Shown: positions 8,316 through 51,079 of the stretch, piece by piece | How the letters are laid out: every line of letters begins with the position of its first letter | Numbering within the stretch: the stretch's first letter is position 1 | From: an uncultured cyanobacterium | GTDB lineage: Bacteria; Cyanobacteriota; Cyanobacteriia; PCC-6307; Cyanobiaceae | Assembly: GCA_903871775.1 (NCBI GenBank) | Contig: CAIQIA010000008.1 | Coordinates: 1 to 51,328, forward strand | Direction: 5' to 3' | Length of the DNA stretch: 51,328 nucleotides | Translations under genes and position numbers: made by a program | Notes under the pieces: model-generated | The model's database searches: none | What the model was told of the DNA's origin: nothing | Seen by the model: the letters and a program-made list of their open reading frames with translations, nothing else

Positions 8316-10037
8316 TCAGCCCTCCGCCGGCCGCTGGCGGCGTCGTTCAGCCCGGGTCTTCTGCTTGAGCCGATTGGCGGCACGCTTGGCTTCCCGCGCC
8401 GCTTCGGCCTCCATCTCCTCCTGGCGCGACGCCTCCTGGGCCTTGCGCTCCAGATAGGCGTCGTAGCCATCGGGATACGACACCAGGCCGCCGTCGCGCA
8501 GCTCCACGACACGGTTGGCCACCGCCCTCAGAAAGGCCCGGTCATGGGAAACCAGCAGCACCGCCCCCTCGTAGGCGCTCAGCGCCTCCTGCAGACGCAG
8601 CTTGGCCGGAATGTCGAGGTGGTTCGTGGGCTCGTCGAGCAGCAGCAGGTTGGTGGGCTTCACCATCAGCAGGGCCAGGGCCAGCCGTGCCTTCTCACCA
8701 CCGCTGAGGCGACCCACCGGCTGAAAAACGGCGTCGTTGCTGAAGCCGAACCCCCCCAGCAGCGAGCGGACCTGGGTCTGGGTCCAGTCCGGCACGGCAC
8801 TGAACAGCGTCTCGATGACCGTCGTGTCGAGGTCCAGGGCCTCCGCCTGGTTCTGCTCGTAGTACCCGGCGATGACGTTGTGGTCGCCCAGCTGGGCCGT
8901 GCCGTCCTCCGGTTGCTCGACGCCCAGGATCAGGCGCAGCAGGGTTGATTTGCCCGCGCCGTTCGGGCCGACGAACGCGATGCGGTCCCCCCGCTCCACC
9001 TCCAGTTCAGCCCCCAGAAAGAGGATGCGGGAGCCGTAGGCATGGCTCAGGTCGCTGACCCTGGCCACCACCCGACCCGAGCGCGGTGCCGTCGGCAGCT
9101 GGAAACCCGGCCCGCTCAGGTCGGTCTCGGGGGCATCGAGTCGGTCGACCTTGTCGAGCAGCTTCTCGCGGCTCTTGGCCTGGGTGCTGCGGGTGGCGCT
9201 GGCGCGGAAGCGGTCGATGTAGGCCTGCTGGGCGGCCAGCTCCTTCTGCTGGCGGTCGTAGGCGGCCTGGGTGGCGTCCTGATCGAACTGCTTCTGTTCC
9301 AGGTGGTCGGAGTAGTTACCCACATAGCACCGGGTCAGTCCCCGCTGGGTCTCGACGATCGAGGTGCAGATCCGATCGAGAAAGGCCTGGTCATGGCTGA
9401 CCACCACCAGGGCCACGCTGAGGCTGCACAGGTATGACTCCAGCCAGTCGATCGTGGCCAGATCGAGGTGGTTCGTCGGCTCGTCGAGCAGCAGCAGATC
9501 CGGCTCCTGCAGAAGGATCTTGCCCAGGGCCATGCGCATCTGCCAGCCCCCCGAGAAGGTCCGCACCCGCCGTTCCGCGTCGTCGCCGCTGAAGCCGAGG
9601 GTCGGCAGCAGCCGGTCGATGCGGGCATCGAGGGCATAGCCCCCCAAAGATTCGAAGCGGCTCTGCAGCCGCCCCAGCTCCTCCACCAGGCTGTCGAGCT
9701 CGGCGCCGTCGGCCGTGGCCAGCAGGTCTTCGACCTGCCGCTGGCGATCCACCACGGCGGCGGCCTCGGCGAAGGCCTGGAACAGCTCCTCCCGCACCGT
9801 GCGTTCGCCCTCCACGTCGCACTCCTGGCGCAGAAAGGCGATCCGCGGGTTGCCGAGGCGGATGATCTGGCCGCTGCTGGGTTCTTCGAGACCGGCGATG
9901 ATGCGCAGCTGGGTCGATTTGCCGGCGCCGTTGACGCCCACGAGACCGATGCGGTCTCCGGCCTTCACCTCCCAGCTCACATCCCGGAGCACCTCTCCGT
10001 TCGGGTAGATCTTGCCGACTCGCTCCAGGCGCAGCAC
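8316..10037 (-). CDS. ABC-F family ATP-binding protein
   Basis: This 573-residue protein starts with GTG at 10037 and contains two ABC ATPase domains and no membrane domain. Domain 1 (about residues 1-240) has Walker A GVNGAGKST, signature FSGGW and Walker B LLLLDEPTNHLDL. A linker region rich in Gln/Arg/Lys follows (YDRQQKELAAQQAYIDRFRASATRSTQAKSREK), and domain 2 (about residues 320-530) has Walker A GPNGAGKST, signature LSGGE and Walker B LLLLDEPTNHLDI. The C-terminus is a charged coil. This is the ABC-F layout (Uup/YheS-like), whose members bind the ribosome E site rather than transport. Which ABC-F subfamily is not decided here. Confidence 0.92.
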   Translation of the reverse strand: MLRLERVGKIYPNGEVLRDVSWEVKAGDRIGLVGVNGAGKSTQLRIIAGLEEPSSGQIIRLGNPRIAFLRQECDVEGERTVREELFQAFAEAAAVVDRQRQVEDLLATADGAELDSLVEELGRLQSRFESLGGYALDARIDRLLPTLGFSGDDAERRVRTFSGGWQMRMALGKILLQEPDLLLLDEPTNHLDLATIDWLESYLCSLSVALVVVSHDQAFLDRICTSIVETQRGLTRCYVGNYSDHLEQKQFDQDATQAAYDRQQKELAAQQAYIDRFRASATRSTQAKSREKLLDKVDRLDAPETDLSGPGFQLPTAPRSGRVVARVSDLSHAYGSRILFLGAELEVERGDRIAFVGPNGAGKSTLLRLILGVEQPEDGTAQLGDHNVIAGYYEQNQAEALDLDTTVIETLFSAVPDWTQTQVRSLLGGFGFSNDAVFQPVGRLSGGEKARLALALLMVKPTNLLLLDEPTNHLDIPAKLRLQEALSAYEGAVLLVSHDRAFLRAVANRVVELRDGGLVSYPDGYDAYLERKAQEASRQEEMEAEAAREAKRAANRLKQKTRAERRRQRPAEG

Positions 10038-44723: not shown

Positions 44724-46084
44724 CGGACGAGCACCGCCTCGGCCGCGGCCTCACCGGCCCGGATCGCCCCCTCGAAATAGCCCGGCCAGCGGCGGGCCAC
44801 CTCGGTGCCCGCCCACACGACCCGGCCATGGGGGCGGCGCCAGGCATCGCCGAGGGTGGTCCAGGTGCCCGGCAGCGGAAAGGCCGTGAAGGCTCCGCCG
44901 GTCCAGGGTTCGCTGCCCCAGTCGTGCCAGATGAGCTCAATGGGCCTGCCGGCCCGGGGTCCCCAGAGGCTCTCCAGTTCGGCCAGCAGGCAGGCCCGTT
45001 GCTCGGCGGGGTTCATGGTCCCGAAGGCCAGGGCCCGGTCGGCGGCGATGAAGCCCGCCAGCACCCCGGGCTCCGCTTCCGGCGGCGAACTGTCGGCCGT
45101 CAGCTCCAGCCAGGCCCGTTCGCCCAGGGTCAGGCCGTTGCCACCATCGTCGCGCCAGAAGGCCCGCTCATACACGGCGAGCACCTTGACCATCGCGCCC
45201 ATGGGCCAGCGCTGGTGCAGGGCGATCTGGTCGGGGGGCAGCGGGGGGTCGAACCGCAGGCGCTGCCGCTGGTTCGGGGGCATGGCCACCACCACGGATC
45301 GGCAGCGATGGCGGTGGCCATCGTCCGTCGTCACCTCGGCGCCCCCGTCGTCCTGCGCAATCGCCACGACCGGGCAGCCGGTGTGGAGGTCTGGCCCCAG
45401 GTCTGCGGCCAGCCGTTCGGCCACCTGGCCGGCGCCGCCGCGCAGCAGCCAGCCTTCCGGCGCCTCCCGCTGGGGGGCAACGGCCTGGGTCCAGGCCAGG
45501 TGCAGCATCGACACCTGATGCAGTTCGAAGCCGCCTGACCCCCCCACCCGTCCCAGCCACTGCAGAGGCAGCTGAGCGGCGGCCGATGCCCCGAGTCCCT
45601 GCAGCCACGCAGAGGCCGTGATCGTGTCGAGGGCGACGGCGTCGGGGCTGCGCCAGGGTTCATCGGGATCGACCTGCTCCACCAGCTGGCGGAACCGCTG
45701 TTCCACGGCCCTGGCCTCTGCCCGTTCGCCAGCGCTCAGGGGCAGGTCGCCGGGTTCGAAGAACAGCAGGGTGTCGTCGAAGTCGGCCCCCAGCCGCGCT
45801 TGCCGGGCTTCCCCACGCCAGCGGAACAGGCCCTCTCCGTCGTAGAAGCTCCTGAACCGTTCCAGGTCCAGCGCGTTCACCAGGGCCTCGAAGCGGGTGT
45901 GGGTGTCGCCTCCCCACTGGCCGCCCAGGTCAACGGTCACACCGCAGTCGAGCCGCCGCCGCCGCATGCGCCCACCGGCCGTGTCGGCCGCCTCCAGCAC
46001 CCGCACCGTCTGACCGGCGGCCCGCAGGCGGCGAGCCGCCACGAGGCCCGACAGGCCCGCCCCCACCACCACCGCATCGAGCAT
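44699..46084 (-). CDS. Flavin amine oxidase-like FAD oxidoreductase
   Basis: The protein has 461 residues from the ATG at 46084; much longer frames upstream are shadow of mtnA. FAD-binding [42 protein letters not shown] is the N-terminal Rossmann fold with the GG motif of monoamine oxidases. The C-terminal FAD motif [29 protein letters not shown] closes the fold. The substrate-binding half resembles plant/bacterial MAO and carotenoid desaturase relatives; the precise substrate cannot be told. Divergent from mtnA across a 66-base region. Confidence 0.9.
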
Positions 46085-46150
46085 GGGGCCCCGCCGCCAC
46101 TGTCTCCAGTGTGGCCGGCAGGACATGATCGAGGCAGAGACCCCGCCGCC

Positions 46151-47245
46151 ATGAACATCGACGGTCGCCCCTGGCGCACCATCTGGCTCGAACCCGATGG
46201 CCGCGCCGTGGGGGTCATCGACCAGACCCGCCTCCCCCACGCCTTCGAGACCCGGCGCCTCGACAGCCTCGAGACGGCTGCGGCGGCCATCCGCACCATG
46301 GTGGTGCGCGGGGCTCCGCTGATCGGCGTCACCGGTGCCTACGGACTGATGCTGGCGTTGCAGGCGGATCCGTCGGATGACGCCCTCGTGGCGGCCGAGG
46401 CCACGTTGCTGGCCACCCGGCCGACGGCGGTGAACCTGGCCTGGGCCCTGGAACGCACCCGCCGGCGGGTGCAGGCCCTGCCCCCCGGTGAACGGGCCGC
46501 CGCCGCCGCCGCCGAGGCCGCGGCCATCGCCGATGAGGATGTGGCGATGTGCGAGGCCATCGGTGACCACGGCCTCGCCGAGTTCCGCCGCCTGCATGGG
46601 GCCCTGCCCCCCGGGCGGCGGGGCCAGCCGCTGCAGGTGCTGACCCACTGCAATGCCGGCTGGCTGGCCACCGTCGACTGGGGCACGGCCCTGGCGCCGA
46701 TCTACAAGGCCCACCGGGCCGGGTTGCCCGTCCACGTCTGGGTCGACGAGACCCGGCCCCGCAACCAGGGGGCGAGCCTCACGGCCTATGAACTGGGACG
46801 CGAGGGGGTTCCTCACACGGTCATCGTCGACAACGCCGGTGGCCACCTGATGCAGCACGGCCAGGTGGATGCCGTGATCGTGGGCACCGACCGCACCACC
46901 CGCCGGGGGGATGTGTGCAACAAGATCGGCACCTACCTCAAGGCCCTGGCGGCCCATGACAACGGCGTGCCGTTCTATGTGGCCCTGCCGTCCTCCACCA
47001 TCGACTGGACCCTGGAGGACGGTCTGGCGGAGATCCCGATCGAGGCCAGGGCCGCCGAGGAGGTGACCCACATCCAGGGCACCGGCGCCGCGGGTGATCT
47101 GGTCAGTGTGCGCCTCACCCCCGGCCCGTCCCCTGCCTTCAATCCCGCCTTCGACGTGACACCGGCCCGGCTGGTGACGGCCCTGATCACCGAGCGGGGC
47201 CTGGCAGCGGCCAGTGAAGAGGGCCTGCGGCGTCTCTACGGCTGA
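46151..47245 (+). CDS. mtnA: S-methyl-5-thioribose-1-phosphate isomerase (or related pentose-P isomerase)
   Basis: The protein has 364 residues from the ATG at 46151. Motifs are [16 protein letters not shown], the catalytic cysteine in [16 protein letters not shown], and the catalytic Asp in [41 protein letters not shown]. The enzyme converts MTR-1-P to MTRu-1-P in methionine salvage. Some MtnA-like enzymes act on 5-deoxyribose-1-P. A class II aldolase gene 3.2 kb downstream could take its product. Confidence 0.95.
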
Positions 47246-48243: not shown

Positions 48244-48798
48244 ATGGTGGTGGAGCCATCCACGCCCCTTCCGGAGAGGGGCCTTTGCAGCCCGTCCCAC
48301 GCCGGGGCGGTGATCAGCCCCTGCGGCCGCTATCGCTATGCCCTCTGGCGCCGCTGGGGGGAGGGCTCCGGCGAGTTGCTGGTGGTGGGGCTCAACCCCA
48401 GCCGTGCCGATGCCGACGGCGATGACCCCACCCTCCGCCGCTGTGTGGGCTACGCCCGGGCCTGGGGCTGTTCCGGCCTGAGGTTGGCGAACCTGTTCGC
48501 CTGGCGCAGCCCCGACCCTGGCGCCCTGCGGCGGGTGGCTGATCCGGTGGGTCCCGATGCCGACCGCTGGCTGGTCGGGCTCGCGGCGGGGGCCCGGCTC
48601 GTGCTGGCCGCCTGGGGCAACGGCGGCCGCCTGGGGGGGCGCTCCCGGGTCGCCCGGCGGCTGCTGCCGCCGCTGCAGGTGCTGCGGTTCACCCGCCTCG
48701 GCGAGCCGGCCCATCCGTTGTATCTGCCGGCCTCCCTGCGGCCGCAACCCTGGATCGAGCCGCCGATCGACCCACCGATCGAGGCCCAGCGAGAATGA
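48244..48798 (+). CDS. DUF1643 protein
   Basis: The protein has 184 residues from the ATG at 48244. The signature SPCGRYRYALWRRWGEGSGELLVVGLNPSRADADGDDPTLRRCVGYARAWGCSGLRLANLFAWRSPDP is the DUF1643 motif (LNPS.A......DPT....). It is a small protein of unknown function, found often near DNA repair or mobile genes in other bacteria. Its stop overlaps the methyltransferase start (ATGA). The divergent slipin gene starts 77 bases away. Confidence 0.88.
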   Translation: MVVEPSTPLPERGLCSPSHAGAVISPCGRYRYALWRRWGEGSGELLVVGLNPSRADADGDDPTLRRCVGYARAWGCSGLRLANLFAWRSPDPGALRRVADPVGPDADRWLVGLAAGARLVLAAWGNGGRLGGRSRVARRLLPPLQVLRFTRLGEPAHPLYLPASLRPQPWIEPPIDPPIEAQRE

Positions 48799-49793
48799 GG
48801 GCCATGCACCCCCCGGCGATGCCAGCGGCACCCCAGGCCCCCACGGCTCCCCCCAACTGGGTGGCCTCGCGCCATCCCCTCGGCTGGCTGATTGACCGGC
48901 TGCTGCAGGTGGGGCCCCTGCGGGGGCTGCTCTTCCAGCAGGCGCGGCGGTTGATCATCCGCACGGCCGAATCCCGTGGCATCGCCTGGAGGGCCCGGCG
49001 CCACGACCTGGTGGCTCAGGCGGAACCGCTGCTGCCCGCCGTGCTTTGTCCCGGCCTCGAGCCACCCCCGTACTACCGGGTGCGCTTCCATGCTTACGAC
49101 GCCGGCAACCTCTGCTGGGAGGCCGCCGGCGAGGCCGAACAGGCCACCGACGCGATGGCCCTGCGGGTGTGGCCCGGTGAGGCCCTCGCTCCCCAGGTGG
49201 CCCAGCGGCGCCTGCGGGAGGCGATCTTCGCCATCGTCGAACCGTCCCTGGAGGGCCCCCTGCGCCGGGTGCTGGATGTGGGGTGTTCCGTCGGTGTCGG
49301 CACCCTGGCCCTGCGGGACTGGCTGGATCAGCGGGGGGACCGCACTGCGGTGGTCGAGGGGCTGGACCTCTCGGCACCGATGCTGGCGGTGGCGCGGGTG
49401 CGGGATCGTGAGGGGCGCATCGCGGCCTGGCACCATGCCGCCGCTGAAGCAACGGGTCTGGCCGGGGGCAGCTTCGATCTGATCACCCTGCAGTTCGTGT
49501 GTCACGAGCTGCCCCAGGCCGCCACCCTGGCCGTGCTGGCCGAGATGGGCCGCCTGCTGCGGCCCGGCGGCACCCTGGCCCTGGTGGACCAGGATCCGCA
49601 GTCGACCGTGATCCGGCGGCTGCCGGCCCCGATCGCCACCCTGCTCAAAAGCACCGAGCCCTATCTCGAGGAGTACTTCTGCCTCGACCTGCCGGCGGCG
49701 CTGGAGGCCTCCGGGTTCGGTGGAGTGCGCACCCAGCCCTGTGATCCGCGCCATCGGGTGGTCGTGGCGCAGCGGATGCGCGTTCCGGAGTGA
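48795..49793 (+). CDS. Class I SAM-dependent methyltransferase
   Basis: This 332-residue protein starts at the ATG overlapping the DUF1643 stop. Residues ~150-310 are a Rossmann methyltransferase: motif I RVLDVGCSVGVGTLAL, acidic loop VVEGLDLSAPMLAVARVR, motif IV-like FDLITLQFVCHELPQAA, and LRPGGTLALVDQD. The N-terminal ~130 residues (ESRGIAWRARRHDLVAQ; YYRVRFHAYDAGNLCWEAA) are an additional region seen in UbiE-like and picocyanobacterial members. Substrate unknown. It is followed 73 bases later by the GG-peptide genes; no link is shown. Confidence 0.9.
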   Translation: MRAMHPPAMPAAPQAPTAPPNWVASRHPLGWLIDRLLQVGPLRGLLFQQARRLIIRTAESRGIAWRARRHDLVAQAEPLLPAVLCPGLEPPPYYRVRFHAYDAGNLCWEAAGEAEQATDAMALRVWPGEALAPQVAQRRLREAIFAIVEPSLEGPLRRVLDVGCSVGVGTLALRDWLDQRGDRTAVVEGLDLSAPMLAVARVRDREGRIAAWHHAAAEATGLAGGSFDLITLQFVCHELPQAATLAVLAEMGRLLRPGGTLALVDQDPQSTVIRRLPAPIATLLKSTEPYLEEYFCLDLPAALEASGFGGVRTQPCDPRHRVVVAQRMRVPE

Positions 49794-49866
49794 GGGAGGG
49801 GTCAGGCGCGGGTAACCAGGACTTGGGCGTACGACCCACTGGACCCACCTTTCATTTCCTGAACCC

Positions 49867-50025
49867 ATGAACAACCTCGTGCTCAAGCCCCTGTCGACCA
49901 AGCAGTCCGAGTCCGTCTCGGGGGGCTTCTTCAACGGCTTCGCCGTGAATTCGACCGGGACCAACTCCCAGCAGAGCGTCGGCTATGTCGGCATCGGCCT
50001 GGTCGGTATCGGCCGCATCCTCTGA
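49867..50025 (+). CDS. Double-glycine leader peptide 1 (52 aa)
   Basis: ATG at 49867, TGA at 50025, 52 residues. The leader MNNLVLKPLSTKQSESVSGG (20 residues) ends in Gly-Gly and has L at -12, S at -11, E at -6, V at -4, S at -3, close to the C39-peptidase leader consensus (L-S...I-x-G-G). The predicted mature part is 32 residues, starting FFNGFAVNSTGTN and ending in the Gly/Val-rich QQSVGYVGIGLVGIGRIL, with no cysteine. It resembles bacteriocin-like or EbfG-like secreted peptides of cyanobacteria. No canonical ribosome site is seen upstream. A strong terminator follows. Confidence 0.8.
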   Translation: MNNLVLKPLSTKQSESVSGGFFNGFAVNSTGTNSQQSVGYVGIGLVGIGRIL

Positions 50026-50052
50026 TTCCCTGACCATCTGAAGTCAGCTCTG

Positions 50053-50080
50053 CCCATCCGGAGGCCTACGGATGGGTTTT
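50053..50080 (+). terminator. Rho-independent terminator between the two GG-peptide genes
   Basis: A perfect 8-bp stem CCCATCCG (50053-50060) and CGGATGGG (50069-50076) with loop GAGGCCTA is followed by TTTTAT. It lies 27 bases past the first peptide's stop. Confidence 0.95.
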
Positions 50081-50107
50081 ATCTGATCCACCGCGTTCCC
50101 AAGATCC

Positions 50108-50347
50108 ATGCCCCTCGTGCAACCCTCTTTCTGCTCCCCTCGCCTCCGCCCCCTCACGCCAGAGACCTGTGAGGTCATCTCCGGTGGAGCGGTCCGCATG
50201 TCCGTGATCTCACTGCAGGCCCTGCTGCCTCGCTTCGGGTCCGATATGGCTGTCACCCCTGCCACCACAGACCCCGGTGGCTCCACGACCACCAACATCG
50301 GCAGCATCGGCACGTCTCTGGTCAGTGTCGGCGCGATTTATCTTTAG
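50108..50347 (+). CDS. Double-glycine leader peptide 2 (79 aa)
   Basis: The frame from ATG 50108 encodes 79 residues. Its leader ends LRPLTPETCEVISGG at residue 27, with L -12, T -11, E -6, I -4, S -3, the same pattern as the first peptide; E -6 and the SGG end are shared by both. The predicted mature part has 52 residues; its tail (PGGSTTTNIGSIGTSLVSVGAIYL) aligns with the first peptide's tail (NSTGTN...VGIGLVGIGRIL). Two cysteines lie in the leader, none in the mature part. It starts 28 bases after the terminator, so it needs its own promoter or readthrough. Confidence 0.78.
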   Translation: MPLVQPSFCSPRLRPLTPETCEVISGGAVRMSVISLQALLPRFGSDMAVTPATTDPGGSTTTNIGSIGTSLVSVGAIYL

Positions 50348-50401: not shown

Positions 50402-51079
50402 ATGCCGTCGGAGGTCACCCCCGCCACGGAGGAGCAGCTGCGGCTGGAGCTGGTGACGGTCGCCCGGCGCATGAATGCCTGCGGCATCAACCAGGGCACC
50501 TCCGGCAATCTGTCGGTGCGCTGGGGCGACGGGCTGCTCATCACGCCGTCGTCGCTGCCCTATGAGCTCATGCAGCCCGAGGATGTGGTGCTGCTTCAGG
50601 GCGGGGGCCGCTGGCAGGGCCGCCGCCGGCCCTCGTCCGAGTGGCGTCTCCATGCCGATGTGCTGGCCCGGCGCCCCGATATCCAGGCGGTGGTCCACTG
50701 CCATTCCGTGCATGCCACCGCCTTGGCCTGCCATGGCCTGGCTATTCCGAGTTTTCATTACATGGTGGTGATGGCGGGGGGCTCCTCGATCCGCTGCGCC
50801 CCTTACGCCACCTTCGGCACCCAGACCCTAAGTGATCTGGCCCTTGCCGCCCTGGTCGACCGCCGGGCCTGTCTGCTGGCCCAGCACGGTCAGGTGGCCC
50901 TGGGCGCGGGTCTTGACCAGGCGCTGCGCCTGGCCATTGAGGTCGAAACCCTCGCCCGCATGTACCTGCAGGCCCGCCTGATCGGTGATCCGCCCCTGCT
51001 GGATGACCGCGAAATGGAGCGTGTGGCGGCTGCCATGGCCGAGATCCATTACGGAGAGACGCCAGAACCCTTGCCCTGA
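50402..51079 (+). CDS. Class II aldolase (FucA/AraD family)
   Basis: This 225-residue protein starts at the ATG at 50402. Family markers are INQGTSGNLSVRWGDGLLITPSSLPYELMQPEDVV, SSEWRLHADVLARRPDIQAVVHCHS (catalytic Glu in SSEW; zinc His pair HCH) and the third His in LLAQHGQVALG. Class II aldolases of this group cleave fuculose-1-P, and homologues (Ald2/DrdA) cleave 5-methylthioribulose-1-P or 5-deoxyribulose-1-P. With mtnA 3.2 kb upstream, the latter is plausible. Confidence 0.92.
   Translation: MPSEVTPATEEQLRLELVTVARRMNACGINQGTSGNLSVRWGDGLLITPSSLPYELMQPEDVVLLQGGGRWQGRRRPSSEWRLHADVLARRPDIQAVVHCHSVHATALACHGLAIPSFHYMVVMAGGSSIRCAPYATFGTQTLSDLALAALVDRRACLLAQHGQVALGAGLDQALRLAIEVETLARMYLQARLIGDPPLLDDREMERVAAAMAEIHYGETPEPLP

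Follow-up and report, generated by a model that had tools for sequence, protein, structure and literature searches.

Small proteins with a double-glycine (GG) leader and a C39 exporter are a known kind of cyanobacterial microprotein, to which the EbfG proteins belong. In Synechococcus elongatus PCC 7942, EbfG1-4 are encoded by four genes beside pteB, and the cysteine of PteB is required for secretion (PMC4997328). EbfG1-3 were described as forming amyloid (PMC9981879), the EbfG mature parts were reported to lack homologues in other cyanobacteria (PMC4997328), and very low core conservation is the rule among cyanobacterial C39-exported GG peptides (PMC3140520). We found a comparable arrangement in one other genome (G070), where a PteB-type exporter adjoins three EbfG-type genes: the mature parts start with TYTPPSHPYP, SGYTQYPSYK and LFQSANSGAS, resembling in style the secreted EbfG1, 2 and 4 of S. 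elongatus (PMC4997328), and each peptide contains ALNIG or AQNIG, which resemble the amyloid hotspot of EbfG (PMC9981879).

The two genes described here, P1 and P2, belong to a freshwater picocyanobacterium with a genome of 2.57 Mb and are located on contig C8, within the window (the whole stretch of DNA that was analysed, 51,328 nucleotides; Table 1). Like EbfG1-4, they encode small GG-leader proteins without a recognised domain, their leaders are of the same class and their genome has a PteB-like C39 exporter. In contrast to the EbfG genes, they are only two, with a hairpin between them, they are not beside the exporter, and their mature cores are not homologous to EbfG by alignment: comparison with EbfG-type cores yielded no alignment at a reporting limit of ≤10/500 shuffles. 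The parallel with EbfG therefore concerns the system, without homology of the mature peptides, and the comparison with EbfG drawn in an earlier, sequence-only reading of this DNA holds for exporter and leader class and fails for the mature cores. What is new in P1 and P2 is the unrecognised core, the lack of linkage to the exporter and the narrow distribution.

Table 1. Features of the P1/P2 locus, in coordinates of the window.
Feature	Position	Strand	Remarks
mtnA gene	45800-47245
SAM methyltransferase gene	48795-49793	+	directly upstream of P1/P2, same strand
Near-palindrome GGGCGTACGACCC	49825..49837	.	upstream of P1; identical in the sister genome, nearby intergenic sequence diverged
P1 precursor gene	49867..50025	+	52 aa; ORF, kept in the sister genome; dN/dS 0.23 (rough); leader score rank 3/12,110
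P1 leader	49867-49926		20 aa; MNNLVLKPLSTKQSESVSGG
P1 predicted mature part	49927-50022		32 aa; FFNGFAVNSTGTNSQQSVGYVGIGLVGIGRIL
Hairpin then U-run	50052..50081	+	9-bp stem, 8-nt loop GAGGCCTA, between P1 and P2; terminator-like scan and fold
P2 precursor gene	50108..50347	+	79 aa; ORF, kept in the sister genome; dN/dS 0.33 (rough); leader score rank 2/12,110
P2 leader	50108-50188		27 aa; MPLVQPSFCSPRLRPLTPETCEVISGG
P2 predicted mature part	50189-50344		52 aa; AVRMSVISLQALLPRFGSDMAVTPATTDPGGSTTTNIGSIGTSLVSVGAIYL
Class II aldolase gene	50402-51079		beyond P2; psbA next, at contig end

Several features read earlier from the letters alone were borne out: the two ORFs are adjacent and placed as described, the lengths of the predicted mature parts are correct, and both leaders end in L[S/T]xxxxEx[V/I]SGG, with L at -12, S/T at -11, E at -6 and V/I at -4. 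The corresponding strict DNA pattern (YTN WSN (NNN)4 GAR NNN RTN NNN GGN GGN) has three matches in the whole genome, and the reversed pattern, run as a control, has none. P1 and P2 account for two of these matches, 262 bases apart; the remaining one has no ATG shortly before it in its frame and indicates no plausible small gene. We also trained a leader matrix on 41 GG peptides encoded upstream of the exporter at 20 PteB-like loci, from 19 genomes of other genera (one of the 41 was removed as spurious); the consensus of these leaders is L-12, D-10, Q/E-8, A/S-7, E-6, I/L/V-4 and GG. The matrix was used to scan the six frames of 205 kb of this genome, made up of the window, the two exporter loci and the sequence around most of the 57 genome-wide matches to a looser pattern, with overlapping pieces counted twice. 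Four peptides head the 12,110 distinct G[GAS] sites, A (19.4), P2 (10.8), P1 (9.8) and B (8.6), the fifth site scoring 6.4, and the same four lead when only the 272 sites matching the regular expression behind the training set are considered.

Peptides A (MTLITLNECAAETVRGG, followed by FFDLAAIRQ..) and B (MLRTLDASQCDVITGG, followed by WAMPPVTV..) are the two GG peptides that precede a C39 exporter on contig C14. A search of the genome with PF03412 retrieved two loci, on contigs C14 and C6, both adjoined by HlyD. The C14 exporter is of the short type, which matches the 'group III' described by Wang et al. (PMC3140520), keeps the catalytic cysteine (DCGAAC) and shares 51% identity over 716 aa with the exporter at the EbfG-type locus of G070. 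The C6 locus (L057:8878-12429) is a long-type cluster, with rotamase, cNMP-C39-like-ABC and HlyD, and matches the SurA-containing long-type clusters that Wang et al. (PMC3140520) call 'group I'. In its C39-like domain the motif is DEPFAC, whereas active enzymes have DCGxxC, and with the catalytic cysteine missing it is unlikely to cut leaders, although long-type clusters such as this one are filed as bacteriocin clusters. By the motifs of the two domains, the C14 exporter is shown to be the only detected C39 exporter of the genome with a catalytic cysteine, and the PteB-like exporter predicted from P1 and P2 was thus found. We observed that peptide B runs in frame into its own exporter (L056:9398-11833) and that the two are separate ORFs in the sister genome (L194); the junction differs by one base between the genomes, from a frameshift or an assembly error, and a real peptide-exporter fusion was rejected, this 1-nt difference explaining it.

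Comparison of the leaders shows that those of P1 and P2 are, at the level of predicted sequence class, the kind that accompanies PteB-like exporters. The genes on C8 and the exporter on C14 are unlinked, and it is mainly on the leader-matrix ranking that we assign P1 and P2 to the C14 exporter nonetheless; export by this system appears highly probable. Because both carry a GG signal cut by a dedicated exporter, the cell probably secretes them.

The mature parts resemble each other in their tails, as had been claimed. Mature P1 and P2 align with a score of 43 (2/2000 shuffles equal or better) and their sister-genome counterparts with a score of 42 (0/2000), the composition-preserving shuffles controlling only partly for Gly periodicity. 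The alignment is ungapped over 21-26 residues and the N-terminal halves differ. On these alignments, common descent of the two tails seems likely; chance Gly-rich similarity is argued against by both shuffle counts, with incomplete exclusion. The tails are Gly-rich and hydrophobic, an aggregation-prone stretch covers each of them (AGGRESCAN scale), and AlphaFold models of P1 and P2, with a pLDDT of about 50, are uninformative. Neither protein was assigned to a family in the libraries searched, in line with the suggestion of a possible undescribed family.

The cores of this genome contain no Cys and match no lanthipeptide family, which agrees with the earlier view that they are not lanthipeptide-like. 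The NHLP/Nif11-leader lanthipeptide precursors of picocyanobacteria also have a GG leader, and prochlorosin-type precursors can sit apart from their exporter. P1 and P2 differ from them in their short leaders and Cys-free cores, and neither protein has a match to a Nif11 or NHLP leader domain in Pfam or NCBIfam.

We compared P1 and P2 with the peptides beside PteB-like exporters as well. The exporter occurs in about 36 of 400 family genomes (C39 domain 45-64% identical), and is therefore broader than the pair; peptides other than P1 and P2 adjoin most of the PteB-like exporters inspected. In picocyanobacteria, 37 of 40 exporter-linked cores contain QxN (shuffle mean 8.9), and in 27 of the 40 a second Qx[NS] follows 12-32 residues on (shuffle mean 0.7, maximum 5), the spacing being most often 17-25 residues. 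Peptides A and B belong to this set (0/400 shuffles as good). The QxN peptides (L255-L274; L056:9132-9320 and 9398-9600) recall curlin-type repeats, without a Pfam match, and judging by these repeats they possibly form a family of two-repeat amyloid-like microproteins. They share with P1 and P2 the leader class, a richness in Gly, Ser and hydrophobic residues and a near absence of Cys. P1 and P2 differ in lacking QxN and in being unlinked to the exporter, and we rejected their membership of the QxN family, as their cores align with QxN cores no better than shuffles, 10-25% of which are as good on mean score (60% for sister P2).

Homologues were expected in related genomes, and both genes were in fact found, in unchanged order and again flanked by the methyltransferase and aldolase genes, in the sister genome (G001; the MAG Synechococcus sp. 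UW140, CAMASU01), the one other genome of the genus that was compared. P1 is 73-76% and P2 about 59% identical to its counterpart there, and the dN/dS ratios (NG86) of 0.23 and 0.33, respectively, are rough, coming from two sequences only. The C-terminal 18 residues of P2, TNIGSIGTSLVSVGAIYL, are identical in both genomes, as are the TGTNSQQSVG and VGIGLVGIGR segments of P1. Both genes are coding and under purifying selection. A paired architecture across picocyanobacteria, the wider expectation of the sequence-only reading, did not prove general: the pair is present in 2 of 400 family genomes (this one and its sister), though about 36 have PteB-like exporters. Neither P1 nor P2 was found elsewhere among these 400 genomes or in 99 relatives, and P1 has no relatives in the genome collection, in viral contigs (P1 profile) or in plasmids (P1 protein). 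The weak matches of a broader family search (E 0.001-0.05) were rejected, as they mostly contain internal stops or lie inside long ORFs, and no GG leader was seen at the few sites inspected. So far, P1 and P2 are confined to one genus.

The genes around the pair are arranged differently in relatives. mtnA and the class II aldolase gene are adjacent or nearly adjacent in several of them (G002, G007, G010, G025 and G034); in the window the interval between the two holds the SPFH-protein gene, orf48220, the methyltransferase gene and P1/P2. In G025, the counterpart site reads mtnA, orf48220 homologue, aldolase and psbA, with methyltransferase and pair missing.

Two short elements flank P1. The hairpin downstream, not noticed in the sequence-only reading, is a candidate terminator or attenuator: its 24-nt core and the following TTTT are identical in the sister genome, the flanking spacer being hardly alignable, its sequence occurs once in the genome, and Rfam has no match in the region. 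Its loop includes the self-complementary AGGCCT, and the constraint exceeds the needs of a plain terminator. As the hairpin lies only about 26 nt before the start of P2, P2 is probably reached by read-through, and we infer that the hairpin may set the P1:P2 ratio. The near-palindrome upstream is possibly an operator or promoter element, judging from its form and conservation; no copy with ≤2 mismatches occurs close to where the exporter operon begins, so that no operator common to pair and exporter was found, and no sigma-70 consensus promoter was found for the pair.

We consider it rather probable that P1 and P2 are unlinked cargo of the PteB-like exporter, assembled as EbfG-like matrix or surface microproteins. 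The C14 exporter would cut both leaders after GG and send the 32- and 52-residue proteins outside, the step for which the leaders and the catalytic cysteine argue strongly. There, the Gly-rich hydrophobic C-terminal tails may, by analogy with EbfG, self-assemble or co-assemble as matrix or surface material; they could alternatively be membrane-active. Perhaps the hairpin lets only some transcripts continue to P2, so that P1 would be in excess. A bolder version, which we regard as rather doubtful, makes the pair an independently evolved, EbfG-analogous two-component assembly, in which excess P1 and the scarcer, longer P2, with its related tail, would co-assemble, in a ratio set by a conserved attenuator hairpin and with the exporter acting in trans.

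As neighbouring GG-leader peptides that differ in length, with cores without Cys and hydrophobic Gly-rich tails, P1 and P2 could also be a C39-exported two-peptide bacteriocin of the class IIb kind, whose members combine in the membrane of competitors, and such cyanobacterial precursors are usually filed as bacteriocins (PMC3140520). P1 scored 16.4 bits against the CTB family bacteriocin NF038167 (cut-off 32), the match lying mostly in the leader. Peptides of class IIb typically have a positive charge and carry GxxxG-like motifs, whereas the charge of the P1 and P2 cores is 0 to +1 and strict GxxxG occurs in neither (P2 has one SxxxS). In addition, the 608-base interval between methyltransferase and aldolase holds, beyond P1 and P2, no plausible plus-strand gene for a candidate immunity protein, and related tails are unusual for complementary partners; a bacteriocin is therefore unlikely. 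GG leaders serve signalling peptides too, in other bacteria, and the short conserved C-terminal tails would suit secreted signals sensed by the population, but the neighbouring genes (methyltransferase, aldolase and psbA) include no sensor kinase or receptor gene and hydrophobic Gly-rich tails would fit assembly better than diffusion, which leaves signalling with little probability. The methyltransferase gene immediately precedes the pair in the same orientation and occurs with it in the sister genome too, and the enzyme might be taken to modify P1 and P2 for release as a modified natural product; its relatives, however, are found in 29 of 60 genomes searched, nearly all without the pair, so the enzyme is not dedicated to the peptides, and such a product is highly improbable. 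That the ORFs are non-functional and their GG leaders chance or decayed relics, as very short ORFs without a database match in only two genomes might suggest, is hardly credible: the dN/dS ratios and the conserved gene order speak against it, as do the high ranks of the leaders, which are intact, and the invariance of the tails.

With P1 and P2 read as unlinked cargo of the PteB-like exporter, a PteB-like system is mapped in a freshwater picocyanobacterium, comprising an exporter, its linked peptides and an unlinked pair with matching leaders. This arrangement suggests a lasting exporter and leader class with changing cargo, and also that cargo may be encoded elsewhere in the genome, where searches confined to exporter neighbourhoods miss it. 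With two peptides and one exporter, it offers a small system for studying picocyanobacterial aggregation or attachment.
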